Shown piece by piece: positions 4,440-21,927 of a stretch of DNA of 24,697 nucleotides. Location: positions 1 to 24,697 of IMG/VR virus record IMGVR_UViG_3300010885_037255. One strand, written 5' to 3'. Within the stretch, counting starts at the first letter, position 1, and each line of letters starts with the position of its first letter. This DNA is from a virus. Made by a program: the position numbers and the translations under genes. The notes under the pieces were generated by a model. The model was not told where the DNA came from, searched no databases, and worked only from the letters and a program-made list of their open reading frames with translations.

Positions 4440-5883
4440 AATCTATCTTTTCTATATTATAAGGATAATTGGCCTCTTTATAAAATTTTTTTCTTTGTCC
4501 AAGATGTCTTTTTGCAAATTTACAACTGGAAGTTATATCCCAAATGTTAACGTGATCTTTATCTTCTGCTTTTCTTATACCCCTACCAATGCTTTGGATC
4601 ACACGCACAAAGCTCTTTCCAGGTTCTATCAATACCAAATTAAAGATTCTAGGTATGTTTATGCCCACAGCAGCCACACCATAGGTAGCAATGATAACTT
4701 TGTGTTGTGCTATGGAAACTTCATCATAGTGTTCTTTTCTTTCGGTGTTCTTTGTAGATCCAGATATAAACACACTGTCTGGTATTTTCTTTTCTAATAA
4801 CTCTCCTGCAGATATTCTATCCACGAGTATCATTGTGTTGCCTGTGGCGGCGATATCTTCTATGGTTTTTGCGATCCACGACATTCGAGTTTCGTCCGTG
4901 GTTAACCATTTTAATTCTTCTTGATAATTTTTAAATTCCGGATGGTCCTGAGTTTGTAATACATTAACATTACATTGTGCCAATACTCCTTTATCTTGTA
5001 ATTCTTTGGCTGCTATCTTATTGGCCACTTCTCCTATGCTGCATTTTAATCCGTAGAATTCATAGTCGGCTTTCGGCACAGTGCCTGTAAGTCCCCAACG
5101 TATGCCACATCGGGCAAACGGTCCGGTCAACATTCTTTTTAACACATCTGCCTTCGCCATGTGCACCTCATCCACTATTATGGTATTGATATTTTCTATC
5201 GCTTCTAGGAACGCAGTCGTTTCATCATCTCGGCTTTTCTTTTCCAATACATTCAATGACTGCCAGGTGGCAATGGTGTTCTGTCGGCCTAACTCTTTTC
5301 GGTCACCATAATACACTCCTACATCCAAATTGCAAGCCAAGAAGTCATCTTCGGTTTGTGTGACTAGACTTTTGTTAGGTACAATGGTTAGAGTACGTCC
5401 ATAATTCTCAACCAGTTTGCATAGAGCTGCTGTGATGATGGTCTTGCCCGCTCCTGTGGCAATCTCCTGAATGCACTGAGGATTTTCTAAAAATTTGTTT
5501 ATGGTTTCCACTTGATAATCTCTCAACACTATAGGCTGTCCAGCACAAGGATGATTTTTAGGCCAGTTAATTGTTGATAGATAATTTTGATCAATTAATT
5601 TAAATTCAAAGTTGTGAGGAGTTCTTTGATCTTCTAATTCCACATACACTCCAGCATCTTCCAATATTGGCAGTATCTGCCCAACCAATGCTAGATAAGT
5701 GTTACCACCCAATCCAAAGAAACTGACTTTACCATCCCATCTGCCCAGTTTTACTGCTGGTAGATGTCGAGCATAAGGTATTTCAAATTTAAATTTGTTA
5801 CTGAGATGCTTTCTATGTTCTAGAGAAAGATTTTCAAATTTAACATTTACTTCGTCTCGTATTACTAATTTGCATGAACTCAT
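4411..5883 (-). CDS. uvsW: UvsW, ATP-dependent recombination DNA helicase
   Basis: A 490-residue superfamily 2 helicase, close to the T4 protein's length (about 500). Visible motifs in order are Walker A ATGAGKT (142-148), DEVH (238-241), the TGT of motif III (266-268), and motif VI QSIGRGIRK (430-438). The N-terminal 115 residues (KLGRWDGKVSFFGLGG) match the small DNA-binding domain typical of UvsW. In T4, UvsW unwinds branched DNA and R-loops, drives fork regression and switches replication from origin-dependent to recombination-dependent mode. The start overlaps the upstream gene's stop as ATGA. It is transcribed with the 445-aa gene from the promoter at 7233-7260. Identification is firm. 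Confidence 0.95.
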   Translation of the reverse strand: MSSCKLVIRDEVNVKFENLSLEHRKHLSNKFKFEIPYARHLPAVKLGRWDGKVSFFGLGGNTYLALVGQILPILEDAGVYVELEDQRTPHNFEFKLIDQNYLSTINWPKNHPCAGQPIVLRDYQVETINKFLENPQCIQEIATGAGKTIITAALCKLVENYGRTLTIVPNKSLVTQTEDDFLACNLDVGVYYGDRKELGRQNTIATWQSLNVLEKKSRDDETTAFLEAIENINTIIVDEVHMAKADVLKRMLTGPFARCGIRWGLTGTVPKADYEFYGLKCSIGEVANKIAAKELQDKGVLAQCNVNVLQTQDHPEFKNYQEELKWLTTDETRMSWIAKTIEDIAATGNTMILVDRISAGELLEKKIPDSVFISGSTKNTERKEHYDEVSIAQHKVIIATYGVAAVGINIPRIFNLVLIEPGKSFVRVIQSIGRGIRKAEDKDHVNIWDITSSCKFAKRHLGQRKKFYKEANYPYNIEKIDYENNFNKRL

Positions 5884-7217
5884 ATAGATTGTAGTATAAT
5901 GTCAGATGGCATCTGACTCATATAATACAACCTTTTTGGCAAACTTTCAACCAACTTGTCCAATGTATTGGTAGACATAGGCCATCTAGGATAATCCTGC
6001 AACATGAATGCAACTCGAGGCTTAATACCAGATTTCATAAGAGTTCTTGGTATTTTGTTTCTAACAAATATAATTTTTGTTGCAGCAGTAATTTTACGAT
6101 TGTTAACACTGAACTCATACAGTTCTTGCCAGTCTTTGTATATTTTTGATCGTTCTTCTATCGGAGTATCTGCTCCATAAAAGAGGTCGGGAGATGGAAA
6201 TTGTTCTATTTCAGGATTAGGATCGATGTTTATGGGACGATCAAATTCAAAACCAAAAGCGATATTATCCTGCGATATGCCCACAGATTCAAATGTTTTT
6301 AACCATTCATGAATTGAAACAATTTCTTCCTTAGACTGTATGTCTCCGCTGAATGGACAAATTGCTGGCAAATTACCCAACTCTATAATTGCTTCTAATA
6401 ATGTTTTTTTATCATGTGTTTTTCTATCCACGAATAGATTAGTATTCAAAGAGTAGGCTATCTTCTCTGCTAGAGTGTTTGCTGGCAATGATTTATTCCT
6501 TACAGAAGAAATATTGAATTGTTTTAACTGATCTCTTTGTTTGATATAAGGTAATGATTGGCAATGTTCTTGCCAATATTCTGCGAGAGATTCAGGAGCG
6601 TTAATGAATCTTACGGAACTCTCATCTATGTCCGCAATAACGGGTTGATATTTTTTCTTTTCTCGTTTGATCTCCTCGTAATCTTCTAATATTTTTGTTT
6701 TGAGTATTTTAAAATCATATCTCACAGCAATTAGAGTAGCATAGTAGGCCACAGTGTCAGTGTAGTTCATAGTCCATTTTTTAGTCTCTCCATCATACAA
6801 CATGGGAACCAGTTCTTGTGTTTTCTTTTTAAGACATCGTATCAATGCAATAATTTTTTCATTGTAAGGAAAACGCATCTCTAATATTTCTCGACCGTCT
6901 TCGGCTGCAAAAGTATCTATGCTTTTCTCAAAACTGATCACTCGAAAAGGTTGATCATAACGAGGATTGTTTATCAATTCATCTGCATCAAATCCAAATT
7001 TATTCAGCAGAGTTTTATATCTCTTTAGGAACATCATGGCTAGATTGGCCTGTTTCTCTGTCCAAGCATAAGGAGCATCAGCGAGACTCTGTATAGTTTT
7101 AAAATCTTTATCATGCACCCCAGAATTTTGAAAAATACCACCGGTATTATAGGCCAATATTCTGAGAGCAGCCTCCATGGATTCTATAATACGAAGAGGT
7201 ATGTTTGAATTTGTCAT
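5880..7217 (-). CDS. Conserved phage protein upstream of uvsW, possible HARP-like DNA-binding region, 445 aa
   Basis: This 445-residue protein is not recognised by a catalytic motif. The stretch APYAWTEKQANLAMMFLKRY (49-68) and the later YDGETKKWTMNY (141-152) recall the annealing-helicase HARP pattern in which a strand ends in W-x-(V/M). No Walker A or DEAD/H motif is present. The second half contains a CPF (Cys-Pro-Phe) and a cluster of basic residues near the C-terminus (KIIFVRNKIPRTLMKSGIKP). It is the first gene after a strong sigma70-like promoter and its TGA overlaps uvsW's ATG, so it probably works with UvsW, perhaps as a DNA-structure recognition or regulatory partner. Function is inferred from context only. 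Confidence 0.7.
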   Translation of the reverse strand: MTNSNIPLRIIESMEAALRILAYNTGGIFQNSGVHDKDFKTIQSLADAPYAWTEKQANLAMMFLKRYKTLLNKFGFDADELINNPRYDQPFRVISFEKSIDTFAAEDGREILEMRFPYNEKIIALIRCLKKKTQELVPMLYDGETKKWTMNYTDTVAYYATLIAVRYDFKILKTKILEDYEEIKREKKKYQPVIADIDESSVRFINAPESLAEYWQEHCQSLPYIKQRDQLKQFNISSVRNKSLPANTLAEKIAYSLNTNLFVDRKTHDKKTLLEAIIELGNLPAICPFSGDIQSKEEIVSIHEWLKTFESVGISQDNIAFGFEFDRPINIDPNPEIEQFPSPDLFYGADTPIEERSKIYKDWQELYEFSVNNRKITAATKIIFVRNKIPRTLMKSGIKPRVAFMLQDYPRWPMSTNTLDKLVESLPKRLYYMSQMPSDIILQSI

Positions 7218-7681: not shown

Positions 7682-8399
7682 ATTCTTCGTAAGTTATTAA
7701 TTGAGTGTTTCCTAAATCTGTTCCTGTTTGAAGATGGTGTAAGAATTCTGGGGGATTGTCGTGCACCACAGTGAAGTTGCAATAAGGACGTTGTTTTATC
7801 AGTGTTCGAAATTGTTTCAGCCATCCTCCAAAAACAAGATCGCTATGTCTTTCGTTATAAAAAATAGTGTCTTGATAGATATTATTAAGTTTATTTTTTC
7901 CGTATTCTCGAAAATCAAATCCTATGAGATGTATATTTTTATGACCGTGAACACAAGCCGTCCACATGGCCTGTTGGCCAGAAACCCAATGAGGATTATT
8001 GGGTATAAGATGTAGTTTTCCAGGATAACGATTAACTTCCAAAGAAGGAGCATAACATATGCATTTTTCATAAACTCGATCTTCTATTATGCCTTTGGTC
8101 ATTTTTGAGTCAACCATGAACAAATAATCGGGGATAAAATCTCTATAGAGAGCGTTACACCCGTATATCTGCCCAGATGTTTTTAAAAGATTCAAATCAA
8201 ATCCTTTCCTAGAAGGACCGTTGCCAATGATATAAGCATTTCCTTGAGGTACTGCTCTAACTCGATCTTCATAGAACGCAGTTTCCTGTATTTTTTTACC
8301 TCCTCTTATAATAGTTTTTACTACGACGGTCTCTCCTTTATAAGGTTTCCACTCTAGAGGAGTTATTTCTTCTGTATTTCTAATTTTTATATTTTTCAT
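7656..8399 (-). CDS. Glycan-associated protein with GNGPS motif (GT42 or DUF115/MptE-like), 247 aa
   Basis: Residues 55-66 read AYIIGNGPSRKG, the nucleotide-binding loop seen in GT42 sialyltransferases (CST-type 'NGPSL') and in DUF115/MptE-like proteins. A strand-turn follows (IYGCNALYRDFIPDYLFMVD) as in the same Rossmann-like fold. A later HLIGFDFREYG carries the 'GxDf' element of DUF115-type proteins. The first 50 residues lack a signal peptide. A transferase using a CMP- or other NDP-sugar is the likely role; substrate unknown. The start overlaps the previous gene's stop as ATGA, making it the last of a three-gene minus-strand operon (10173 to 7656). The assignment to GT42 versus DUF115 is open. 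Confidence 0.65.
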   Translation of the reverse strand: MKNIKIRNTEEITPLEWKPYKGETVVVKTIIRGGKKIQETAFYEDRVRAVPQGNAYIIGNGPSRKGFDLNLLKTSGQIYGCNALYRDFIPDYLFMVDSKMTKGIIEDRVYEKCICYAPSLEVNRYPGKLHLIPNNPHWVSGQQAMWTACVHGHKNIHLIGFDFREYGKNKLNNIYQDTIFYNERHSDLVFGGWLKQFRTLIKQRPYCNFTVVHDNPPEFLHHLQTGTDLGNTQLITYEEFTKKVLSQ

Positions 8400-9268
8400 C
8401 TTATGTATTTTTCTTCAAGACGTTGTCTTATTCTAGCCCATGGCAATCCTTCACGTATCTCTGATACCGTCCATTCTGTATAAGCCAATTTATTTGCCCA
8501 CTGTTGACGTTCGGGCATTGTAGGATTTTCTATTTTTGATAAAGAATGATTGCCCACATCATAGCATAGACTTGATTCGCTCACAAATACAGGTATACCA
8601 TTGATAACAGATTCTATAGCTGGATTAGAAGAATAATTAATTACTGCCCAAGCCGACTTTAAAGTTTTTTTAAAATCTGTGTCATCATAGGTATTTAGAT
8701 CTCTTTGTGGTTTTCCTATTTTAACGTTGGTATATTTTTTTTCGTTAAGATCAAATACATTTCTAGGATGTGGTCTCACCAATATTGGACGATCACTATA
8801 TTTTCTAATCTCAATTATTTGTTGTTCAACCCAATCATTCATACTTGGTTTTTCTCTCCACTGATGACTAGCATCGTGTTGTCCACATATTATTATAGTG
8901 TTTCCGGTCTGTTTCCATGGTTTCATTTCTATATTAAATTTAGGCCATCTTTTATCATCAAACTTATCATTTGCAAAATCAGCATCTCTGTTTATACCAT
9001 TGATACCTATTTTCCATGTGCTATTTCTTTTGAGACCTCCCACTTCCATTACAACAACAGGTTTATTACGTTCTTGAAAATTATTCCATATTTCTCTATT
9101 GGCAGACATTCTGCCAGACCATAATACAGACCAAATAACAGCAACATCACAGTCTTCATCTTTATTGATAGACATGTTTTCTCCTTTTGATCGTAGATGT
9201 TCTATAAAAGCATTAAAAACAGGACGGCTATTTAAACTGCCATTTTGTGGGAATATTGCTATTTTCAT
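8396..9268 (-). CDS. GT-B-like glycosyltransferase paralog A (capsule-synthesis type), 290 aa
   Basis: The frame is open from 9310, but the ATG at 9268 overlaps the upstream TGA as ATGA and begins MKIAIFPQNGSLNSRPVF, so I use it. The product is one of four related proteins here. Family features are a first-domain block WKIGINGIN...KFNIEMKPWKQTG, then IIICGQHDASHQW, a strand-HP motif ILVRPHPRN, and AWAVINYSSNPAIESVINGIPVFV. The last resembles the donor-binding 'S-x-x-x-x-E-x-x-x-x-G-x-P' of GT-B capsule and Kdo-type transferases. It closes with a shared tail LSKIENPTMPERQQW. Likely to transfer an activated sugar in the island's glycan; donor and acceptor unknown. Middle gene of the 10173-7656 operon. 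Confidence 0.7.
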   Translation of the reverse strand: MKIAIFPQNGSLNSRPVFNAFIEHLRSKGENMSINKDEDCDVAVIWSVLWSGRMSANREIWNNFQERNKPVVVMEVGGLKRNSTWKIGINGINRDADFANDKFDDKRWPKFNIEMKPWKQTGNTIIICGQHDASHQWREKPSMNDWVEQQIIEIRKYSDRPILVRPHPRNVFDLNEKKYTNVKIGKPQRDLNTYDDTDFKKTLKSAWAVINYSSNPAIESVINGIPVFVSESSLCYDVGNHSLSKIENPTMPERQQWANKLAYTEWTVSEIREGLPWARIRQRLEEKYIR

Positions 9269-10173
9269 TTTAATGAAGGTGGAACTTTTTTCCAATAATC
9301 CACGTTCCATATATTTGCTGGAGCATCTTTCATGGGTGGTCTCAAATCTGCTTTGGCACTGCTGCCTAGTTTTTTTCTTTTGCCTTTCATATGATCCATA
9401 TACAATCCTAATTCACTATTAATAAACACATGATGTCCTTTCACATTCTTACCGTAGCCAATATCATTTACCTGTATGTTGTATTTCTCTTGAAATTTTC
9501 TAGCTAGGTGCCAAAATACAAAACTATCATGCCATTCTAATAATTGAAATACTTCATTGGTAATGTATAATTTTTCCCATTCAGAAACAAATTCTTGTAT
9601 GTTAGGATGTCTTAAATTATATCCCACAAACCCGCATTCGGGATATTTGCCACCATCTTTTAATGCATATCTTTCTCGACCTAGGAAAGTTAACATAGTA
9701 TCTTTAGGTAGTAGAGTCTCAAGGAAATTTAATGGTACGGGTCTAAAAGTAAATGTATCAGCATCAATCCAAAGAACATAATCGTAAGCAGCAGAATTTC
9801 TCACAGCATTAATAACACAGAAAACTTTATTACTGAATCTCACAGCGTCCCAAAGAAAAGATCCTTTATTTTTATCCAATCCTCCTTGTTTTTTTAGAGC
9901 GGCCGGTCTTCGAACTCCATTCTCTATCTCTTGTAATTCTCCACATGCTATAGGATCATTTCTATGTTTGTTTTTAAATTTTAATAATTCTGGCTCGGCA
10001 GAGTTAAGATCTATCCAAGTAATTCTAGGATGATCATAGTTGGGTTTGGGCTCTTCAAGATAGACTACCAGATCCGTTTCATTTGGCCATTGTTCAGCGA
10101 TGCTCTTGATACCTCTACCTGAATAGAGATCCCATGTGCCTGGCTTATAGGAAGTGATTACTTTAATTTTCAT
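9265..10173 (-). CDS. GT-A glycosyltransferase, GT8-like, 302 aa
   Basis: A DxD metal- and nucleotide-sugar-binding motif sits at residues 137-139 in YVLWIDADTFTF, after an alpha/beta N-terminal domain starting MKIKVITSYKPGTW. Downstream are GFVGYNLRHP and a C-terminal His-rich element (LGLYMDHMKGKRK) where GT8-like enzymes place the second metal-binding His. Together these support a GT-A fold transferase, probably membrane-peripheral and cytoplasmic, since no transmembrane segment or signal peptide is present. It is the first gene of the operon continuing to 8396 and 7656. Upstream lies a 32-base divergent gap with the methyltransferase at 10206. Sugar and linkage cannot be told from sequence. 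Confidence 0.75.
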   Translation of the reverse strand: MKIKVITSYKPGTWDLYSGRGIKSIAEQWPNETDLVVYLEEPKPNYDHPRITWIDLNSAEPELLKFKNKHRNDPIACGELQEIENGVRRPAALKKQGGLDKNKGSFLWDAVRFSNKVFCVINAVRNSAAYDYVLWIDADTFTFRPVPLNFLETLLPKDTMLTFLGRERYALKDGGKYPECGFVGYNLRHPNIQEFVSEWEKLYITNEVFQLLEWHDSFVFWHLARKFQEKYNIQVNDIGYGKNVKGHHVFINSELGLYMDHMKGKRKKLGSSAKADLRPPMKDAPANIWNVDYWKKVPPSLK

Positions 10174-10205: not shown

Positions 10206-10805
10206 ATGCAACGAATTATTCACGATTTAACCTATATGCCCAAGGGTCATACAGGACATCTTTGTCCAACCAAAGACGTGGTTGATGCATGGCAAGAATT
10301 TTATAAAATATTTCCTTTTACCAATATGTTGCAATTTGGCTTCAACACCGGATGGAGCAGTGCATTATTCTTAACTATGTTTCCTGATGTAAAAATAACC
10401 AGTATAGAGATTGCAAAAACAGAAGCGGCTCAAAGAGGAGCGGAGATTTTAGAGAATAAATTTTTTAATAGACACCACATTGTGTGGGGAGACAGTCAAG
10501 AAGTAGGTAAAGAAATAATGGAAGGAAATAAAAAATTACCCTTAGAAAAATATAATATTGCTTTTATAGACGGAGGACATTCTGCTCCTGTTGTAGAGAA
10601 AGATATAGAATTATCTCTACATTTAGGAATTAAAAATTTTGTATTTGATGATGCACAATTACCTCAAATTAATTTACCAACATTAACTAAGTCTAGAAAT
10701 TTAAGATTAATTAGTAAAAAAATTTATCAGGCAACAAAATGGAAATATTCGGGTTATCGTCCTTTAGGTAGTAAAATTATTCTTGCATATTATCAAAATC
10801 TTTAA
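10206..10805 (+). CDS. Class I SAM-dependent methyltransferase, 199 aa
   Basis: The SAM-binding motif I region is MLQFGFNTGWSSALFL (41-56), with the acidic end of strand 2 at TSIEIA (65-70). Motif post-strand 4 is IAFIDGGHSAPVVEKD (118-133), the 'DGGHS' typical of the Methyltransf_24 type O-methyltransferases. The 199 residues cover a minimal Rossmann methyltransferase. The partial gene at the right edge (24322-24697) has an equivalent DDGSH motif, so the phage carries two enzymes of this class. Within the glycan island a sugar O-methyltransferase is the natural reading. It lies alone on the plus strand between two minus-strand operons and ends one base before the convergent asparagine synthase gene. 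No clear Shine-Dalgarno precedes the ATG. Confidence 0.75.
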   Translation: MQRIIHDLTYMPKGHTGHLCPTKDVVDAWQEFYKIFPFTNMLQFGFNTGWSSALFLTMFPDVKITSIEIAKTEAAQRGAEILENKFFNRHHIVWGDSQEVGKEIMEGNKKLPLEKYNIAFIDGGHSAPVVEKDIELSLHLGIKNFVFDDAQLPQINLPTLTKSRNLRLISKKIYQATKWKYSGYRPLGSKIILAYYQNL

Positions 10806-12521
10806 TTATTCCATACTATAACATTTAATCCAGTCTTTCATTACCCACGACGGAATTAAGGCTTTGCCTGCTTTTTGACTTACTGTAACTTGGTCTAATA
10901 TAGACTTTTCTCCCATACTATTTGTATAAAAATTTTTTAAATTTTTATCGACATCCATAGTTAACCATTGTCCAATCGGTACGGTCCACCCAGTTTTTTG
11001 TTTGTTAATTATTGCATCGGGTAGTAATCCTTTATAGGCAATTTTAGTTAACAACTTAGTTTCGTGTTTATTTTTGCCTATTTTATAATTTGTTGGTATG
11101 TCTAGACAGTATTGCATAAACATCTTTGTAGTTAAAGGAAAACGACCTTCCATACCGAATGCCATACCATACTTGTCATTCCTAGCAAAGAATTCATTGG
11201 GCGCTTGTGCTACACAATCAAGAGCCATATAAGATGCTATTGGATCTGCAGGATTCCATAAAGTATCAGGATATAATTTTATCAATTCTTCTCTCAACAC
11301 TGTTGCTGATAGAGTTGGTACTCCAACCACTAGTGGTCTTTTTATTCTTTTTAACCATTTATCTATAACGTCACTCCAAGAATTAAATCTTTCATCTCTC
11401 ATTTTCCAATACTTAGGATATCCTCCTAATATCTCATCTCCCATATCTCCTGCCATGGTTATAATCGTGCTTGCTTCGGATAATTTACGATTAGTGTGAT
11501 AGTACATGCTCATGCTAGGATTATATACAGGTTGCTCCATGAAATAGATACTATTATTCCATGATGCAATAATGTCGTTAGGAGTAATAATAATTTCGTT
11601 GTGATTAAATTTTTCTTGCTCTGCTAATATTTTTGCACAAGCAGCATCGCTATTATAATCTTCATCGGTTACGACATTGGGTTCCATTCGATTAGTAAAT
11701 GTATTCACTGCACCGTGTATCTTCATCATCTCATAAGCTACCACACTGCTGTCTAATCCACCACTGAGAAATACTCCCATCTGTCTTCGTCCTATGCTAC
11801 ACATCTGTACAGTCTTTTTAACTTTATCTCTAAATTCACCAGGATCAAAAGATCCGTTGGATCTAGGAGTGATATAAATTCTCTCTGATGATTTTATTCT
11901 TTTATTTGTGCAATCATATGTGATTGTTTCTCCAGGCATTAATTGTTTTATGTTAGAAAAGAATGTGTTTCTGGTAGCATTAATACCTGTGAGACTCATA
12001 CAACTGATTGCTAACTGATCTATCCTTCTAGAGTTAGGTACTCGATCTAACATACCTTTTATTTCAGAACCAAATATCAACCCTTCTTCTGTTTCAGCGT
12101 AGTACAGAGGTTTAATGCCAGCGTGATCTCGACTTAATATAAGTTGTCTTGTTTGAGTATTATAATAAGCAAAGGCATGCATACTATCAATTTGCTCAAT
12201 AAATCTTACACCGTAATAATCCAATCCCCATGCTAATAATTCTGTATCACATGAGGTCTTGGGTTGAAATTCTCTATATTTTTTTATTAAATCAAAATAG
12301 TTAAAGATCTCTCCATTATAGATTAATATGTTACCTCTGCCAGTGCTCCATGGCTGATGAGAGACTTCGGGTTGATCGGTTATACTTAAAAGATTATGTC
12401 CTAAAGTAATATAGTCGTCGTTCCAGATATCGTGCCCATCTGGTCCTCGATGTTCGCAAATCTTTATATATTTTTCTACAAATTCTCTATCTCGTTTGGT
12501 TATACCATATATGCCGCACAT
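10806..12521 (-). CDS. asnB: Asparagine synthase (glutamine-hydrolysing)-like amidotransferase, 571 aa
   Basis: The start MCGIYG exposes Cys2 as the N-terminal nucleophile of the class II glutaminase domain, followed by RGPDG (25-29) and NGEIFNY (69-75), all hallmark residues. The synthetase domain begins near residue 215 and contains the PP-loop SGGLDSS (253-259) that activates the carboxylate with ATP. Length is close to AsnB (about 550). Classical members turn aspartate into asparagine. Relatives in O-antigen and capsule loci amidate uronic acids or other sugar carboxylates, which fits the surrounding glycosyltransferases better. It is the third gene of the minus operon 14314-10806, starting one base after the stop of paralog B. 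Enzyme class is firm; substrate is inferred. Confidence 0.9.
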   Translation of the reverse strand: MCGIYGITKRDREFVEKYIKICEHRGPDGHDIWNDDYITLGHNLLSITDQPEVSHQPWSTGRGNILIYNGEIFNYFDLIKKYREFQPKTSCDTELLAWGLDYYGVRFIEQIDSMHAFAYYNTQTRQLILSRDHAGIKPLYYAETEEGLIFGSEIKGMLDRVPNSRRIDQLAISCMSLTGINATRNTFFSNIKQLMPGETITYDCTNKRIKSSERIYITPRSNGSFDPGEFRDKVKKTVQMCSIGRRQMGVFLSGGLDSSVVAYEMMKIHGAVNTFTNRMEPNVVTDEDYNSDAACAKILAEQEKFNHNEIIITPNDIIASWNNSIYFMEQPVYNPSMSMYYHTNRKLSEASTIITMAGDMGDEILGGYPKYWKMRDERFNSWSDVIDKWLKRIKRPLVVGVPTLSATVLREELIKLYPDTLWNPADPIASYMALDCVAQAPNEFFARNDKYGMAFGMEGRFPLTTKMFMQYCLDIPTNYKIGKNKHETKLLTKIAYKGLLPDAIINKQKTGWTVPIGQWLTMDVDKNLKNFYTNSMGEKSILDQVTVSQKAGKALIPSWVMKDWIKCYSME

Positions 12522-12522
12522 A

Positions 12523-13509
12523 TTATAATCCTAATCGCTGTTTAAATCTACGAAACACCGTACCGTTTTTAATTTCTTCAGTGGTCCACATTTTATATCC
12601 TAAGTCATTCAACCATTGTGTCCTATCAGGATATTCTGGTGATTCTATTTTGGTTAAATCTTTATTGGCCACCGGCCAGCATATCGCTAGATCTGAAGTA
12701 CAGAAGGTGGGTATACCTCTCACACAACTGTCTGTGCTAGCTGTTGAATTGTGTGTCACCACTGCATGACAATTAGCAATTGCTTCTTGAAAATTATATC
12801 GATAATATTTTTTTTCATCGCCCGACCAAAACTTTTTATCTCCTATAATTAATTCAACATCTTGTGGAAATTCTTTTCTTCTATCTTCCATTACAGCCAT
12901 ATGATTAGGATGTGGCCTCACTAAAAATTTTTTAGAAGTCAACGGTCTTAATATTTTATAAACTCTATTAAACCAATCAATAGGATCTAATTCATTCATA
13001 CTCCAGTTGTCTTTAGGTTGCAGCACAAATAGTATTGGATCTTCTGGGTTGGATTTTTTCCACGGATCGTTCTTAATACTCCATAAGTTTTTCATCATTT
13101 CCCAACGATCTGGTGGAGAGTTATCTGATAGGAAATTGCCGTTATTCATAGGAGAATATAGAGCCACTCTCCAGTGATGACGTGGATGATCCACTGTGTT
13201 TCCAAAACTGCTCAATAGACCACCATCGAATGTGATAATATAGATACCTTTCTCTTTGGCACGTTCTACTAATTCTAATCTTCTGCCTTTGGTATGATGT
13301 CTTTGATTCGTACCTCCATAACCAAACATACAACCAATTGGCGCTGTGGGTTCCATTTCTCCTTTGATAGTTGGACCGTCTAGTTTTTCATTCACAATGA
13401 TAGGATTATCTCCACAAGCTCGTATTCCTTCGGCCATGTGTTTAAGAAGGTCCCAGCTGGCTCCTCGACGCCTATCTTTTACTGTCCTTCTAAAAATCTC
13501 AACATCCAT
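12523..13509 (-). CDS. GT-B-like glycosyltransferase paralog B (capsule-synthesis type), 328 aa
   Basis: Longest of the four paralogs. It keeps the motifs most completely: ILFVLQPKDNWSMNE with a Q-P pair, KKFLVRPHPNHMAV with an H-P pair, then CHAVVTHNSTASTDSCVRGIP and the shared tail LTKIESPEYPDRTQW. Q-P and H-P pairs are reported for beta-Kdo type GT-B enzymes of capsule export systems, so this copy is the best candidate for an active transferase, although the match is by eye. The N-terminal block (ITFDGGLLSSFG, HWRVALYSPMNN) replaces the 'WRI-x-x-N' segment of the other paralogs. It starts 11 bases inside paralog C and is followed by asnB after one base. Confidence 0.72.
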   Translation of the reverse strand: MDVEIFRRTVKDRRRGASWDLLKHMAEGIRACGDNPIIVNEKLDGPTIKGEMEPTAPIGCMFGYGGTNQRHHTKGRRLELVERAKEKGIYIITFDGGLLSSFGNTVDHPRHHWRVALYSPMNNGNFLSDNSPPDRWEMMKNLWSIKNDPWKKSNPEDPILFVLQPKDNWSMNELDPIDWFNRVYKILRPLTSKKFLVRPHPNHMAVMEDRRKEFPQDVELIIGDKKFWSGDEKKYYRYNFQEAIANCHAVVTHNSTASTDSCVRGIPTFCTSDLAICWPVANKDLTKIESPEYPDRTQWLNDLGYKMWTTEEIKNGTVFRRFKQRLGL

Positions 13510-14314
13510 CTAATATACTCCACATCCATTTGTTGCTCATTTCTTCTTTTGTGAATTGTCCATATGCCAGCGAGTAATAACACGGCTCTCTGTCTACATA
13601 TTTAGGTGTTTCTATTTTTGAAAAATCTTGTTCTGCTATAGGCGCACAAGAATTCATGATATCTGTGAACACAGGTATGCCTCTTGCTGTAGCTTCTATG
13701 GTTATGTTGCTGTTAAATGTTACAATAGCATGTGTGTTGTCCCAATCAATTGGTGTTGTTGTGTCTTCGGTATCATTGGGTCCTGGCATTAGTCGACCCA
13801 ATTCGTCAATCTTACTATCTGGGTTATAACCTTTATTTCTTATAACTATCTCTCTATCAGTATTGGTACGAAGTGTTTCTAAAGTTTTAGATAACCAATT
13901 TTCCTGTTCAAACATAACCGCCATACTGTGTGTGGGTGGACACACCACAATTTTACGACCACCTTTCCTCCATGGTTCTATTTTGAATGGAAAATATTTT
14001 TTAAATCTATCACTGGGTCTAGCTTCTAAGAAATTTTTTACATGACCATTTTTAGTTATTCTCATCAGATACGGTTCGCCTCGACTTTCTCCCCAATAAG
14101 GTCGATCCATGAAATAAAAATCAATTTTATTTTTTTGAGCCCAATTATAGACTATGTTGGTGCCTCGTAATATTCCAAGTAATACGACTTTTTTTGCATC
14201 TCGTTGTTGTATCAATTGATTCCATGATAAAATTCTTGATCCTGGTAATCCTTGATGTATCCAATTTATATATTTTTCTGTAGCAGGTCTGTCAGTTTTA
14301 CTTAGGTAAATCAT
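13499..14314 (-). CDS. GT-B-like glycosyltransferase paralog C, 271 aa
   Basis: It shares with its paralogs the first-domain block FMDRPYWGESRGEPYLMRI...ARPSDRFKKY...IEPWRKGG and the second-domain series IVVCPPTHSM, REIVIRNKGYN, THAIVTFNSNITIEATARGIPVF and FSKIETPKYVDRE. The H-P pair that paralogs A and B have is replaced here by N-K-G, and the Q-P pair by P-P. Either substrate chemistry has changed or the copy is no longer a transferase. The 'N-S-x-x-x-x-E-A-x-x-x-G-I-P' donor region is intact. It is the first gene of the minus operon to asnB and overlaps paralog B by 11 bases. Start ATG at 14314 gives MIYLSKTDRPATE; no signal peptide. Confidence 0.7.
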   Translation of the reverse strand: MIYLSKTDRPATEKYINWIHQGLPGSRILSWNQLIQQRDAKKVVLLGILRGTNIVYNWAQKNKIDFYFMDRPYWGESRGEPYLMRITKNGHVKNFLEARPSDRFKKYFPFKIEPWRKGGRKIVVCPPTHSMAVMFEQENWLSKTLETLRTNTDREIVIRNKGYNPDSKIDELGRLMPGPNDTEDTTTPIDWDNTHAIVTFNSNITIEATARGIPVFTDIMNSCAPIAEQDFSKIETPKYVDREPCYYSLAYGQFTKEEMSNKWMWSILDGC

Positions 14315-16186: not shown

Positions 16187-16215
16187 ATTATACTATAAAA
16201 TAGTACAGATGTTAA
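16187..16215 (-). promoter_or_regulatory. Sigma70-like promoter for the GT61 gene, overlapping the divergent gene's start
   Basis: On the minus strand the -35 is TTAACA (16215-16210) and the -10 is TATAAT (16192-16187) with 17 bases between, 11 of 12 consensus matches. The -35 lies inside the first codons of the plus-strand gene at 16209. A TATAAT also exists on the plus strand at 16183-16188, but with no good -35, so the rightward promoter is less certain. The arrangement makes simultaneous use in both directions unlikely. Confidence 0.6.
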
Positions 16216-17021
16216 CCATATACGCACCTCTAGAAAATACCAAAAGTAAATGCTGGGAAGTGTTTGATGGAATCAAGCAGTCTTGGCCCACCGCGGTTAA
16301 GATAAAGAGTAATTTGGAAAACACAGCAGAATCTCCTGCAATGTTTTGGGGATTTGTTAATAACAATATCGATCTTGTACATCAGTTAGAGCAGCAAGGT
16401 TTAGATTATTGGTACACCGATACTCCTTATTTTGGAAGGTTTGATAATAACAATTTAAAAGATGATAATCATTATTGGAGGATTTGCAAGAATCAAATAC
16501 ATGCTAGATATTGGAGAGATTGTCCCCCGGATAGATTTGATAAGTTTAATTTAAAAATTAAGATGAGAGATAAAAATCAGGGCGAGTATATTCTTATTTG
16601 TCCTAGCAGTATAGTCATACACAAATATCTTAAAAAAACCAATTGGTTAGATAACACTATAAAAGAAATAAAAAAATATACTGATCGTCCTATCAAGATA
16701 AGAGAGAAACCCAGGAAGGCTGGGACATCTGGTCCGGCTGTGGCCGATGTGCCGTTAGAACAAGATTTAAAGAATGCGTGGGCTTGCGTGACCAGTTGCA
16801 GCATCAGTGCCGTAGAGGCAGCATTAGAAGGGGTGCCAATATTCAGTGATCCAAAAAGTTTTGCTTGGTCCGTATCATCGTCTAGCCTAGCCGAAATAGA
16901 AAATCCATTATATGTAGATCCAACGGAATGGTTATATTCATTAGCTTATCAACAGTTCACCCCTCAAGAATATGCTAATGGCAAGGCAATCAGTATTTTA
17001 AAAGAAATCAGAATGTTATGA
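16209..17021 (+). CDS. GT-B-like glycosyltransferase paralog D, 270 aa
   Basis: Its first-domain block YTDTPYFGRFDN...YWRICKNQIHARYW...PPDRFDKFNLKIKM aligns by eye with paralogs A and C. The second domain has ILICPSSIVIHKYL, PIKIREKPRKAG, AWACVTSCSISAVEAALEGVPIF and the family tail LAEIENPLYVDPTEW. As in paralog C the R-P-H-P motif is lost (here R-E-K-P) and Q-P is P-S. The 'S-x-x-x-x-E-A-A-L-E-G-V-P' region is the most classical of the four. It leads a plus-strand operon continuing to the epimerase after 28 bases and the GT2-like gene. The start at 16209 overlaps the -35 of the opposite promoter. Being separated from B and C by two other genes argues for dispersal after duplication. Confidence 0.7.
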   Translation: MLTIYAPLENTKSKCWEVFDGIKQSWPTAVKIKSNLENTAESPAMFWGFVNNNIDLVHQLEQQGLDYWYTDTPYFGRFDNNNLKDDNHYWRICKNQIHARYWRDCPPDRFDKFNLKIKMRDKNQGEYILICPSSIVIHKYLKKTNWLDNTIKEIKKYTDRPIKIREKPRKAGTSGPAVADVPLEQDLKNAWACVTSCSISAVEAALEGVPIFSDPKSFAWSVSSSSLAEIENPLYVDPTEWLYSLAYQQFTPQEYANGKAISILKEIRML

Positions 17022-18779: not shown

Positions 18780-19234
18780 TTTAACAAAATTCTAATTTTT
18801 TCATTAGCAGATTCGCCAAAATATATTTCACAAAAAGGAATTTTCATTATACTTTTTCTAGGTCTGACATGAAGTTTATTTTCTTTATTTAAAATTAAAA
18901 TATCATTACCTAGACAAGACATGACCTTATCTTTTCCTTTCATCGAAAGATTTAAAGAATTATCGGCTTTTTTGTCTGTTCTTTGTTTAAAAAACCAATA
19001 ACCTACGTAAGGATTATTTTTTTTTAAAATAGGTTGTTCTATAAGATTCTCATGAAAATAAACTTCAATATTATTTTCTTCAATAAATTTTTGCCAATGT
19101 ATATGTTCTATATTATTCCATTGTTCGTATAATCTTTCATATATTTTTAAAGAAATAAATTTTTGACAATAGATATGCACAAAAGGCATTGTATAACAGT
19201 GTTTTTTTTCTATTTTCCAAATATCTTCTATCAT
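18776..19234 (-). CDS. Unknown protein at the end of the uvsXY-glycan operon, 152 aa
   Basis: I do not recognise this protein. The frame is open from 19267, but an ATG at 19234 overlaps the preceding TGA as ATGA, the pattern used throughout this operon, so I take MIEDIWKIEKKHCYT as the start. It is Lys-, Ile- and Asn-rich, more AT-biased than the gene before it, with aromatic clusters (NPYVGYWFFKQRTDKK) and a basic segment near the end (LHVRPRKSIMKI). There is no membrane segment, signal peptide or known motif. Its position after a GT8-like transferase suggests a glycan role or a recent acquisition at the operon end. Confidence 0.6.
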   Translation of the reverse strand: MIEDIWKIEKKHCYTMPFVHIYCQKFISLKIYERLYEQWNNIEHIHWQKFIEENNIEVYFHENLIEQPILKKNNPYVGYWFFKQRTDKKADNSLNLSMKGKDKVMSCLGNDILILNKENKLHVRPRKSIMKIPFCEIYFGESANEKIRILLN

Positions 19235-19905
19235 GATGAGAAAAGATTTATTAATTCTTTCTTCCAAATATCAGCGTATTCGCAATTTCTGTAATTTTCA
19301 AACCACGGACCACCTTCAGTATAATGTAATATTTTTGGAGAGCCATCCTGTGGTTCTTTGTACCAACCCACTAACCAATTATATTCGTGGGGTAGAGATC
19401 CTATGTCCGAATCTTCTAACCAATTAAATCTATGTAAAAATTTACCCGTTTCCTTATTCAATAATTCTGGAGTAAGAATTTTATTTTTAGGATGAGCGCA
19501 ATTCCACAATACCATAGAGCTCCAATTTTTTCTAGGATATGCCAGTTGCATTTGTCCATCCATTTTGACACCTTCTGGGGGAGTGTAATCGTGTTGCACA
19601 CATACCACTGCTTTGCTGTCATCACAGTATTGTTTTAATTCGTCGGCATCTATTCGCCAAACAAAATCACAATCACAGAATACTGCCCATCCTTGATAAT
19701 TTTGCAGATACGGTATAAAGAATCTTGTAAATGTAAATTCTGTGCTGGCAAGTCGATCTATTTCTCTAGTATAAATTCCAGCTTCTCTAAGAGTTTTCAT
19801 TTTTAGAGGTTCTACTTCGGTACCTCTATTTCTACGTTTTATAGAATGCTCGCACACTTGATATGTGATATCTTCTCGAGGATCATAACCTACATATACT
19901 TTCAT
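19231..19905 (-). CDS. GT8-like glycosyltransferase, 224 aa
   Basis: Starts MKVYVGYDPREDITYQVCEHSI, a first strand and helix common to GT8-like proteins. The DxD is at 78-80 in WAVFCDCDFVW. The GT8 C-terminal metal and phosphate element appears as KILHYTEGGPWF (H194, with H-x-x-x-G-G-P-W), and MVLWNCAHP supplies the acceptor-loop Asn. At 224 residues it is a minimal catalytic domain. I recall close relatives in marine phages and bacteria annotated simply as glycosyltransferases. It overlaps the kinase-nucleotidyltransferase gene by ATGA and the following unknown by ATGA, so it is co-translated with them and could use the activated sugar those genes help to make. Confidence 0.82.
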   Translation of the reverse strand: MKVYVGYDPREDITYQVCEHSIKRRNRGTEVEPLKMKTLREAGIYTREIDRLASTEFTFTRFFIPYLQNYQGWAVFCDCDFVWRIDADELKQYCDDSKAVVCVQHDYTPPEGVKMDGQMQLAYPRKNWSSMVLWNCAHPKNKILTPELLNKETGKFLHRFNWLEDSDIGSLPHEYNWLVGWYKEPQDGSPKILHYTEGGPWFENYRNCEYADIWKKELINLFSS

Positions 19906-20681
19906 AATTTTCCTTCCTCTCGCATTTTCTTTCTAATATCTGTGGCAGAGATTTTTTGTATATTCTCTGGCAAAACAATCTCTTCTATCTTATAACCAAC
20001 TCCTCTGCCATAACAAATATTAGTTATATTTGGTACTAGAGTTATTCTAATTCTGTTCTTGTAAGGTGTTAATGCTTGTTCTATATTCTTTTTAACAGTT
20101 TCAAAATCAAAAGGATTGTCTCCCACATTTTGCACATCGCGAACCTGTATGTTTACCTGTCCTGTTTTTTTAACAATCTCTTCAAACAGAGCCTGATGTC
20201 CTTCGTGCCACGGTTGCCATCTGCCCAACATTTGGGCTGTGGGCCTACGATTATCCCAAACATACTCTTGTATTTCATCTGCTATTCTTAGTGACCACAA
20301 CTCTGCATTCTGTGTAGGCACTCGAAAATCATATTCCTGTGGAGGCACAAACATTTGATTAGTGTCTTCAAAACGTCCTTCTTTAATGGTATCTATCCAT
20401 ACAATATAATCAGCAGCAAAATCTTGTCTAGTTTTTTCAGTAGGACAAACAAAGTCTGCAATCACATGTCGACCACTATCTAATCCTTCTTTTGCTAAAT
20501 GTTTCATTCTCTCTGCTTGTCTTATTCTGCCTTCAAGAGAAAAATCCCAATCGTTAGCTTCTGCTCTCACTCTGTCAGCATTCAGCCATACAGCACCTAA
20601 TATATTTGCTAGTTTATCGGAGAGATAACTCTTGCCCGATCCTGGCAAGCCCATCACTAATATTTTTTTATTTTTTGCCAT
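19902..20681 (-). CDS. Fused P-loop kinase (APS-kinase-like) and nucleotidyltransferase, 259 aa
   Basis: Two domains are visible. Residues 1-135 form a P-loop kinase: Walker A GLPGSGKS (11-18), VWLNADRVRAE (31-41), and GRHVIADFVCPTEKTRQDF (70-88), which parallels the APS-kinase order 'DGDNVR ... VVLTAFISP'. Residues 145-259 form an HxGH-type nucleotidyltransferase: GRWQPWHEGH (153-162), matching GRFQPxHxGH, and KISATDIRKKM (243-253), matching the ISaTxIR of NMN-, pantetheine-phosphate- and cytidylyl-type transferases. The reaction may be phosphorylation of a metabolite followed by NMP transfer, to make an activated sugar, sugar-like or phosphoramidate-like donor, or a cofactor. It overlaps the HAD gene by 14 bases and the GT8-like gene by ATGA. 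Confidence 0.82.
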   Translation of the reverse strand: MAKNKKILVMGLPGSGKSYLSDKLANILGAVWLNADRVRAEANDWDFSLEGRIRQAERMKHLAKEGLDSGRHVIADFVCPTEKTRQDFAADYIVWIDTIKEGRFEDTNQMFVPPQEYDFRVPTQNAELWSLRIADEIQEYVWDNRRPTAQMLGRWQPWHEGHQALFEEIVKKTGQVNIQVRDVQNVGDNPFDFETVKKNIEQALTPYKNRIRITLVPNITNICYGRGVGYKIEEIVLPENIQKISATDIRKKMREEGKL

Positions 20682-21261
20682 TGATGATTTTATGTATGTG
20701 TTGCCAATTATTTACTCGGATAATATTTTCATCTTCTAAGCCTTGGTTGTAATCATGATTATATAATAATGGTCTTAAACCATATTTTAAACCTTTTTTA
20801 GCATTAGTCCATTTATCTTCCACCCACCATAAACCTGTGCCGTGAAATTCCGCCAATGCTGCATCTTTGTGATCGCCAGTTTCTAATATAAAAAAATTTG
20901 TGAATACAGTATCACCAAATAATTCTGCTAGTCTTCTTTTCCTTAATTCCTGTGCCGGTATGTCAGATGTTTGTGATGTTATAGGTATAAATGTCCACCC
21001 TTCTGCATGTAATAATTTTACCCAAGTTTGTGCATCGGGCATTGGCAGTTGTGTACTCATCCATGCACTTTTATTAAATTCTCTAACTAATTCTCGAGAA
21101 AGATCTTTGTGTATGCCATATCGAATACTCATATCGTATTCATGATCTGTGTTCTCTAATTGAGGAAATCCTTTGGTAGACATCCATTTACTAAAATGGT
21201 CTTCCCATTCCAATAGTACACCGTCAACGTCTGTGAGTATTATTCTATCTGATCGTGGCAT
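20668..21261 (-). CDS. HAD-superfamily phosphatase, 197 aa
   Basis: HAD motif I is IILTDVDGVLLEW, with nucleophile D11 and general acid D13. Motif II is FIPITSQTSD. A Lys-containing helix (TGDHKDAALAEF) and the motif IV-like acidic VEDKWTNA follow in order. At 197 residues it is a compact phosphatase of the nucleotidase or sugar-phosphatase size. It overlaps uvsY by 17 bases and the kinase-nucleotidyltransferase by 14. An HAD phosphatase beside a P-loop kinase also recalls T4 polynucleotide kinase-phosphatase, but here the partner has an added nucleotidyltransferase domain and APS-kinase-like motifs, so small-molecule activation is the better reading. Substrate unknown. Confidence 0.78.
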   Translation of the reverse strand: MPRSDRIILTDVDGVLLEWEDHFSKWMSTKGFPQLENTDHEYDMSIRYGIHKDLSRELVREFNKSAWMSTQLPMPDAQTWVKLLHAEGWTFIPITSQTSDIPAQELRKRRLAELFGDTVFTNFFILETGDHKDAALAEFHGTGLWWVEDKWTNAKKGLKYGLRPLLYNHDYNQGLEDENIIRVNNWQHIHKIINGKK

Positions 21262-21703
21262 CTTCCATTCCAGCCACTCGTAGTTTAACTATGTTAGTTA
21301 ACTGCCATTGTTTTTGATCTAATCCTTTGGTTATGCCCAACCATTTATTTCTTAATAGAGCAAACTCATTGATAATTTTTTCCATATCCACTACATCTGC
21401 CTCTCCATCCACATACTTGTCAGCATCTCGAGATGTTAATGCTCTATTGTAATTTTCTAAAAATTTCTTAAATGTTTTGGATCTTAATCTTCGATTTTCT
21501 ATGTTAAGATATTCTAATATGGCTTCTATCTCTTGTAACTGATTGAATCTTTGCTCGACCACTCCCGGCAAAGATGCTGCTGCCTTTTCAAGATTTCCAA
21601 AGATGTATATTTCTTTTCTTGCTGTTTCTAGTTCCTGATCAAAATGTTTTATACAATCAGGTATTAAACTAATATCCTGACTTACTTTTGTATACCAGCT
21701 CAT
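21245..21703 (-). CDS. uvsY: UvsY, recombination mediator protein
   Basis: The 152-residue protein has the conserved UvsY series LEYLNIENRRLRSKTFKKFL, YNRALTSRDADKYVDGE, NEFALLRNKWLGITKGL and a C-terminal VKLRVAGMEDATIR. T4 UvsY is 137 residues. UvsY loads UvsX recombinase onto gp32-coated single-stranded DNA as a ring-shaped oligomer, and both partners are encoded just upstream. The start overlaps the acidic 74-aa gene as TAATG. The stop lies 17 bases inside the HAD gene, which couples the recombination genes to the metabolic and glycan genes downstream. Identification is firm. Confidence 0.93.
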   Translation of the reverse strand: MSWYTKVSQDISLIPDCIKHFDQELETARKEIYIFGNLEKAAASLPGVVEQRFNQLQEIEAILEYLNIENRRLRSKTFKKFLENYNRALTSRDADKYVDGEADVVDMEKIINEFALLRNKWLGITKGLDQKQWQLTNIVKLRVAGMEDATIR

Positions 21704-21927
21704 TATTCGTCGTATCCGTCTTCTTCTTCATCATCAAACACGCTCTCAATTGCTTCTTCTAATTTTTCATCATACTCTCCAGCGGATTTGATCACTTTAG
21801 TGGGAACACCAATATCTACCAGTGTCTTAATAAAGTCCACGGCACAGTCTACTTTCTGTCTATCAGGCACATAGTGACTGATTGAGTTCCATATCTGTTC
21901 TATTTCTTCGTGTGTAAATTCTTGCAT
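21703..21927 (-). CDS. Acidic conserved phage protein upstream of uvsY, 74 aa
   Basis: A small acidic protein starting MQEFTHEEIEQIWNSISHYV, with VPDRQKVDCAVDFIKTL in the middle and an extremely acidic tail (FDDEEEDGYDE). I recall a closely similar protein next to uvsY in marine T4-like phages, always unknown, so it looks like part of the core set. The acidic tail could imitate DNA or contact a basic partner such as UvsY, or the Lys-rich 33-aa peptide encoded just before it. It overlaps uvsY as TAATG and the 33-aa ORF as TAATG. Function unknown. Confidence 0.75.
   Translation of the reverse strand: MQEFTHEEIEQIWNSISHYVPDRQKVDCAVDFIKTLVDIGVPTKVIKSAGEYDEKLEEAIESVFDDEEEDGYDE

Follow-up and report, generated by a model that had tools for sequence, protein, structure and literature searches.

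The 24,697-nucleotide stretch of viral DNA analysed here (IMG/VR record IMGVR_UViG_3300010885_037255, positions 1 to 24,697; hereafter, the window) comes from the genome of a T4-like phage, of which it is a fragment; between 21.2 and 24.2 kb its minus strand carries genes like uvsX, uvsY and gp32 (gp32 and uvsX assigned by eye, uvsY by PHROG 231). On the same strand, positions 19902 to 20681 hold a single open reading frame (ORF) with an ATG start that encodes a 259-residue kinase-nucleotidyltransferase fusion, here named KNT, which we propose to be a compact synthetase of 3′-phosphoadenosine 5′-phosphosulfate (PAPS). A preliminary description of the locus read the gene as an APS-kinase-like P-loop domain joined to an HxGH nucleotidyltransferase (NT), where APS is adenosine 5′-phosphosulfate. 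The uninterrupted ORF, separate Pfam matches for the two domains and an AlphaFold model with two well-folded domains (pLDDT 92.6, pTM 0.87) bear this out.

The kinase domain occupies approximately residues 1–141 (20259–20681) and contains the P-loop GLPGSGKS (residues 11–18; 20628–20651). The minimal NT domain, supported by its predicted structure and by an NT-only homologue from SAR11, covers approximately residues 149–259 (19905–20237) and carries three motifs: HEGH (residues 159–162; 20196–20207) within GRWQPWHEGH, YGRGVGY (residues 224–230; 19992–20012), for which most family members have YGR[D/G]VGY, and ISATDIR (residues 244–250; 19932–19952; ISAT.IRK, against ISGT.IRK in canonical Sat). 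All these features lie on the minus strand. An alignment of 33 relatives leaves invariant the P-loop residues G11, L12, P13, G14, G16 and K17, the HxGH residues H159, G161 and H162, and Y224, G225, R226, V228, G229, Y230, S245, A246, T247 and R250; the motifs GR.QP.H.GH, NPF, YGR.VGY and SAT..R are unchanged throughout. From the 492 candidate stretches for KNT that were confirmed among viral contigs, 80 loci were fetched, and its conservation across these shows that it is not a chance ORF.

Predicted structure and kinship of KNT

The preliminary description took kinship with APS kinases as its key clue, and the domain searches agree. Two Pfam families cover residues 6–89, AAA_33 (1.4e-9) and APS_kinase, the latter at 5.8e-7 and over its gathering score, and PHROG 10255, labelled "kinase", covers the whole protein (E 2.6e-61). 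A family profile searched against solved structures ranks APS kinases first (2yvu, 6e-11; 2gks, 7e-10) and NadR far lower, and APS kinase domains are the best solved-structure matches to the modelled kinase (Z ~18, rmsd 2.0–2.2 over 139 residues). KNT shares with CysC the fold, the P-loop and the GD/AD..R and F..P motifs. The kinase domain of one haloarchaeal homologue, from Halocatena (L186), passes the APS-kinase equivalog TIGR00455 (147.8 versus 138.7 bits), and its C terminus matches CTP_transf_like.

The NT domain is matched weakly by CTP_transf_like over residues 151–206 (0.0065, Pfam). Its HxGH and IS.T..R motifs, together with an α/β fold of the appropriate type, place it in the HIGH superfamily. 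PAPS synthetases (human PAPSS1/2 and the bifunctional Sat/APS kinases of Aquifex and Thiobacillus) likewise combine an APS kinase and an HxGH NT in one chain; in PAPSS1/2 the kinase comes first, as in KNT, and Foldseek and VIA align both domains. KNT, at 259 residues, is well under half the length of the 630-residue PAPSS PDB chain, and its NT, of about 110–120 residues, lacks the PUA-like and Sat domains. Human PAPSS1 aligns to model residues 1–258 with a different placement of the domains (rmsd 11–16).

To our knowledge, two unrelated kinds of ATP sulfurylase exist, Sat and CysDN. KNT matches neither PF01747, the canonical ATP sulfurylase family, nor CysD, and by its sequence the NT domain lies outside both. 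Because it has no canonical ATP sulfurylase domain, we do not file KNT as a member of the PAPS synthetases and propose instead that it works like one. Canonical SAR11 Sat presents RN.PH..H, an invariant GRDHAG and ISG..R in the same order as QPWH.GH, YGR.VGY and ISAT.IR in KNT; this shared succession (HxGH, GRD-like, IS[AG]T..R) is a resemblance only, and does not imply homology. The corresponding ATP sulfurylase motif of PAPSS1 is HNGH (PMC11697783), where KNT has HEGH.

Genomic settings of KNT and its nucleotidyltransferase

Sulfotransferases accompany KNT in diverse genomes. In Rhizobium sp. BK376 they form one 555-residue protein (L102, 7134–8798) comprising Sulfotransfer_2/PF03567 (residues 21–231), APS_kinase (292–373, 1.2e-14) and the HxGH NT (436–466). 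A sulfotransferase gene adjoins KNT in SAR11 and related marine genomes (L088, 2.9e-22; L090, 6.2e-6; L096, 6.3e-15) and in SAR116 (L103, 1.8e-25), and in each of these genomes it is the sole PF00685 gene found. Random placement predicts 0.04 such adjacencies (P ~5e-8), a figure to be read with the fact that glycan islands make placement non-random. Haloarchaeal plasmids (Halocatena, Natrinema, Haladaptatus, Natronococcus) show the order sulfotransferase–KNT, in some cases with a small ORF between; their KNT homologues are full-length (94–97% coverage) and annotated cysC. Among viruses, phage records of the 50–55%-identity group contain sulfotransferases, and one contig (L049/G248) combines the window's uvsX–uvsY–HAD–KNT–transferase order with a sulfotransferase, which sits between homologues of window 12523–13509 and 9265–10173 and replaces window 10206–12521.

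A tree of 42 proteins places the window copy, together with further viral copies of marine origin, within a well-supported group that contains Pelagibacteraceae (97/95), so that capture of KNT from a SAR11-like host is likely. The haloarchaeal, Rhizobium, SAR116 and Stenotrophomonas-phage copies fall outside this group, and the sulfotransferase association therefore recurs in distant branches of the family.

Other settings were also seen. On a Rhodoferax ferrireducens plasmid (L190, 4210–5573), a sulfotransferase overlaps a kinase-only relative of KNT beside a tail-fibre assembly gene, which suggests that prophages also bear sulfation modules. KNT follows class I ribonucleotide reductase-like ORFs (768 and 367 residues; by eye), not uvsXY, in six loci (L030, L032, L038, L041, L046 and L048). 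A Stenotrophomonas siphovirus (L003) has a NADAR gene (5559–5999; PF08719, 4e-26) directly upstream of KNT, and at that position its relatives in the Casjensviridae carry an equally long, unnamed gene. In another virus (L071), a 320-residue ORF (5040–5999) lies directly upstream of an intact KNT; its C-terminal part resembles a degenerate KNT kinase domain, and its front part looks oxygenase-like by eye and has no Pfam match.

KNT also appears to change places with canonical sulfate-activation genes (DISPLACEMENT). SAR11 glycan islands place a canonical APS kinase and Sat pair beside the pyruvate-kinase-like c194, and in other SAR11 genomes (L099, L170, L171) the same c194 adjoins KNT. The islands with the canonical pair (L173, L178–L180) also encode a TauE exporter and, in many cases, a sulfotransferase, although not every part occurs in each. 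In L099, L170, L171 and L178–L180 the gene of this pyruvate-kinase barrel protein is the immediate neighbour of KNT or of canonical Sat.

If KNT is a PAPS synthetase, its NT half should be dispensable next to a canonical ATP sulfurylase, and its loss is predicted there. A plasmid of Microvirga lotononidis (L185, 5232–10767) carries NodC, a NodH-like sulfotransferase, KNT, CysD and CysN in a row, with both CysD and CysN over their curated cut-offs. The KNT kinase is intact, and the NT motifs have decayed to HESH, HGLDLGY and VSPT: HxGH lacks its invariant Gly, YGR lacks its Arg, and ISAT..R is no longer present. The arrangement recalls NodH with NodPQ in Nod-factor sulfation, the CysD/CysN genes being NodP/NodQ-like. 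Unlike in that system, no APS kinase domain was seen in the cluster outside KNT, and CysN carries a DUF2061 tail at the point where an APS kinase is usual in NodQ. This is a single case, which general gene decay may also explain.

The NT domain also occurs on its own. Many SAR11 genomes encode a 126-residue NT-only protein, about 80% identical to the window NT, directly upstream of a membrane protein (cytb), AprB (APS-reductase_C, 8.2e-32) and AprA. NT lies directly upstream of aprBA in about 30 loci, and in a hand-compared set the NT and aprA starts are 0.7–3.2 kb apart in at least 18 genomes. Another SAR11 group (L165, L166) has a split kinase gene and an NT gene tail-to-tail with the same aprBA operon. 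Across 198 Pelagibacterales genomes, AprA exceeds the cut-off in 164, NT in 160 and canonical ATP sulfurylase in 11; AprA and NT co-occur (149/15 versus 11/23; p 2.5e-12 with an odds ratio of 21, in a test that makes no correction for kinship). In a smaller set, none of the SAR11 genomes has CysD.

AprBA in SAR11 is thought to remove sulfite, and the NT is an obvious candidate for the absent step APS + pyrophosphate (PPi) → ATP + sulfate. A 2025 study of SAR11 calls the sulfate pathways incomplete (PMC12636525). Near aprBA, some SAR11 genomes (for example, L129 and L137) also carry sulfolactate sulfo-lyase-like genes and an ORF of the HIT family.

Proposed PAPS synthesis and competing interpretations

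We consider it probable, with good confidence, that KNT is a compact, phage-borne PAPS synthetase acting from sulfate and ATP through APS to PAPS. PAPS is the favoured product because five lines of evidence converge on it: the sulfotransferase fusion, the sulfotransferase neighbours, the aprBA context in SAR11, the exchange beside c194 and the decay of the Microvirga NT. Somewhat less firmly, we think it reasonably likely that the NT represents a third, unrecognised class of ATP sulfurylase, that it completes sulfite oxidation in SAR11, and that phages acquired it joined to an APS kinase, as a full PAPS synthetase with which to sulfate glycans during infection. No earlier account of this kinase-NT fusion or of a small ATP sulfurylase was found in the open-licence literature, subscription papers being outside the search.

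In the proposed mechanism, APS would first be made by the C-terminal HxGH domain, a putative small ATP sulfurylase (ATP + sulfate → APS + PPi); the N-terminal domain would then phosphorylate the 3′-OH of APS (APS + ATP → PAPS + ADP). A phage or host sulfotransferase would use the PAPS, and the acceptor would be a surface or virion glycan made either by the host or by the phage's own glycosyltransferase cluster. The NT that stands alone beside AprBA in SAR11 would run in reverse (APS + PPi → ATP + sulfate) and finish the conversion of sulfite through APS to sulfate and ATP. The preliminary description had foreseen an activation route to a nucleotide-linked donor. That much stands, with PAPS as the most likely donor in place of a nucleotide sugar, and the order of events consequently differs: nucleotidylation would come first and 3′-phosphorylation second.

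Several observations weigh against this interpretation. The window KNT scores only 19.9 bits against TIGR00455, far below the cut-off of 138.7. Unlike in CysC, the kinase lid of the phage and SAR11 proteins is shortened and Asn replaces the first Asp of DGDN; in a sequence alignment Asn34 of KNT stands at the position of human PAPSS1 Asp87, one of the residues D87/D89 (PMC11697783). The whole-model VIA search barely probed the NT, which was therefore predicted and searched alone; its model then resembles a minimal, generic PPAT/NMNAT-type fold (Z 10–11). Its front half (the first 65 residues) is NadM-like (hhalign 96.5% against one phage NadM), and homology to canonical SAR11 Sat is not demonstrable (hhalign 21%). 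No PF13469 or PF00685 sulfotransferase occurs in the window or in most of its close relatives, all of which are fragments; PF03567 gave no match in Pfam scans that covered selected window proteins. Fifteen of the 164 AprA-positive SAR11 genomes, perhaps incomplete ones, have no NT. The NADAR gene that adjoins KNT homologues in the Casjensviridae is unexplained by PAPS and hints at NAD or ADP-ribose chemistry.

One alternative, which we hold unlikely, is that the kinase is a true APS kinase and the NT acts on another small substrate, for example, to make an NDP-sugar that is then sulfated; the tie to sulfation would then lie in the pathway and not in APS. The position of the NT outside both ATP sulfurylase families and the abundance of glycan genes among its neighbours are consistent with such a role. 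It would not explain why an NT-only gene stands in aprBA operons, why canonical ATP sulfurylase is so scarce in the same genomes or why the NT has decayed beside CysD/CysN.

A role in NAD salvage is improbable. Here the kinase would phosphorylate nicotinamide riboside and the NT would adenylate nicotinamide mononucleotide (NMN), as in a NadR with swapped domains, perhaps restoring the NAD of the infected cell. NAD-salvage enzymes do occur in phages (PMC9503650); the NadM-like front half, PDB profile matches to NMN adenylyltransferases and the NADAR neighbour all speak for this possibility. With archaeal, NadM-type enzymes the first half of the NT has GRxQPxHxGH, NPF and the ensuing helix in common, as well as IS[AG]T..R at the end. 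Unlike NadM, every KNT NT aligned to the phage X1 NadM lacks a segment of about 27 residues between the NPF (or NPW) helix and the GH motif, including the only Trp of that segment, and YGR.VGY stands in place of the GHEKD-like segment of NadM. NadR does unite a P-loop kinase and an HxGH NT in one protein; its order, however, is NT first and ribosylnicotinamide kinase second, the opposite of KNT, and its kinase belongs to a different family from the APS-kinase-like domain. The preliminary description had named a match to NadR as the result that would count against it, and the NadR model gives 18.3 bits where its cut-off is 341. Most NT-bearing SAR11 genomes moreover have a separate NadD-like gene (TIGR00482 over the cut-off in 18 of 28), and NAD salvage leaves the sulfotransferase and aprBA contexts unexplained. 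The family scores, the motif alignment and the presence of NadD in SAR11 together disfavour it.

Quite improbable is the possibility that APS in SAR11 is consumed by another protein, such as the HIT-family c36 found near some aprBA operons, and that the NT does something else. Thiobacillus has an APS:phosphate adenylyltransferase that is not Sat, and a HIT-like gene is present in eight aprBA loci; the HIT protein could be an alternative APS-consuming enzyme. Most aprBA loci seen lack c36, in contrast to the roughly 30 with NT directly upstream, and the fusion of sulfotransferase and KNT would have no explanation.

Operon neighbours and implications

KNT overlaps both of its neighbours, as first described, by 14 nt upstream (20668–20681) and 4 nt downstream (19902–19905). 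The operon is anchored upstream by the UvsY-like recombination mediator (21245–21703, minus strand; PHROG 231, E 4.9e-15), which is followed by a HAD-like phosphatase (20668–21261, minus strand; PHROG 420). A Pfam scan of this ORF gave no match; the HAD assignment depends on its syntenic copy in L049, which matches the NT5C 5′-nucleotidase family (PF06941, 7.5e-6). The putative transferase downstream (19231–19905, minus strand) matches one PHROG (28018, function unnamed) and has neither a Pfam nor a solved-structure match, and its earlier designation as GT8-like is not upheld. The HAD and transferase genes adjoin KNT in uvsXY-type phages only and are not required by the proposed route; we set them aside as members of the pathway, for which the preliminary description had enlisted both. 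If NT5C-like, the HAD protein might, speculatively, remove 3′-phosphoadenosine 5′-phosphate (PAP) or other nucleotides.

The glycan cluster contains a methyltransferase (10206–10805, plus strand), the one confirmed of the several previously mentioned, and an AsnB-like amidotransferase on the minus strand, an asparagine-synthase/GATase_7 protein that had been called a glutamine amidotransferase. Together they occupy 10206–12521, a slot filled by a sulfotransferase in L182, a syntenic sister phage. These genes and the glycosyltransferase-rich setting speak for a nucleotide-sugar or O-methyl-phosphoramidate-like route, as first suggested, in which a sugar phosphate would come from the kinase and an NDP-sugar from the NT, with the HAD and transferase proteins completing the pathway. 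We give this idea almost no credence, since the HAD and transferase genes are not kept with KNT outside uvsXY-type phages, the sister phage has a sulfotransferase in the slot and the kin of the kinase are APS kinases. Nothing found points to phosphoramidate chemistry; the scanned neighbours include no families matching the Campylobacter O-methyl phosphoramidate partners, a comparison made without reference sequences.

Two further observations concern the window itself. A conserved 74-residue ORF (21703–21927) lies between uvsX and uvsY and is present in most uvsXY-type relatives. Four glycan-cluster ORFs (8396–9310, 12523–13509, 13499–14314 and 16209–17021) are mutually similar, and many of their relatives share one viral cluster; none has a Pfam match, and they perhaps belong to a transferase family not yet recognised.

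A third ATP sulfurylase, of only about 120 residues, would be a surprise. The NT offers a concrete and cheaply testable candidate for the end of sulfite oxidation in SAR11, the most abundant bacteria of the ocean, in which nearly all aprA-bearing genomes have no recognisable ATP sulfurylase. The present gene labels "kinase", "cysC" and "NMN adenylyltransferase" would have to be replaced. Phages with KNT, marine ones as well as some that infect Stenotrophomonas, Xanthomonas or Clavibacter, may supply a sulfate-activation enzyme of their own, and, if so, phage-driven sulfation would be implied, a process for which no description was found in the literature searched.

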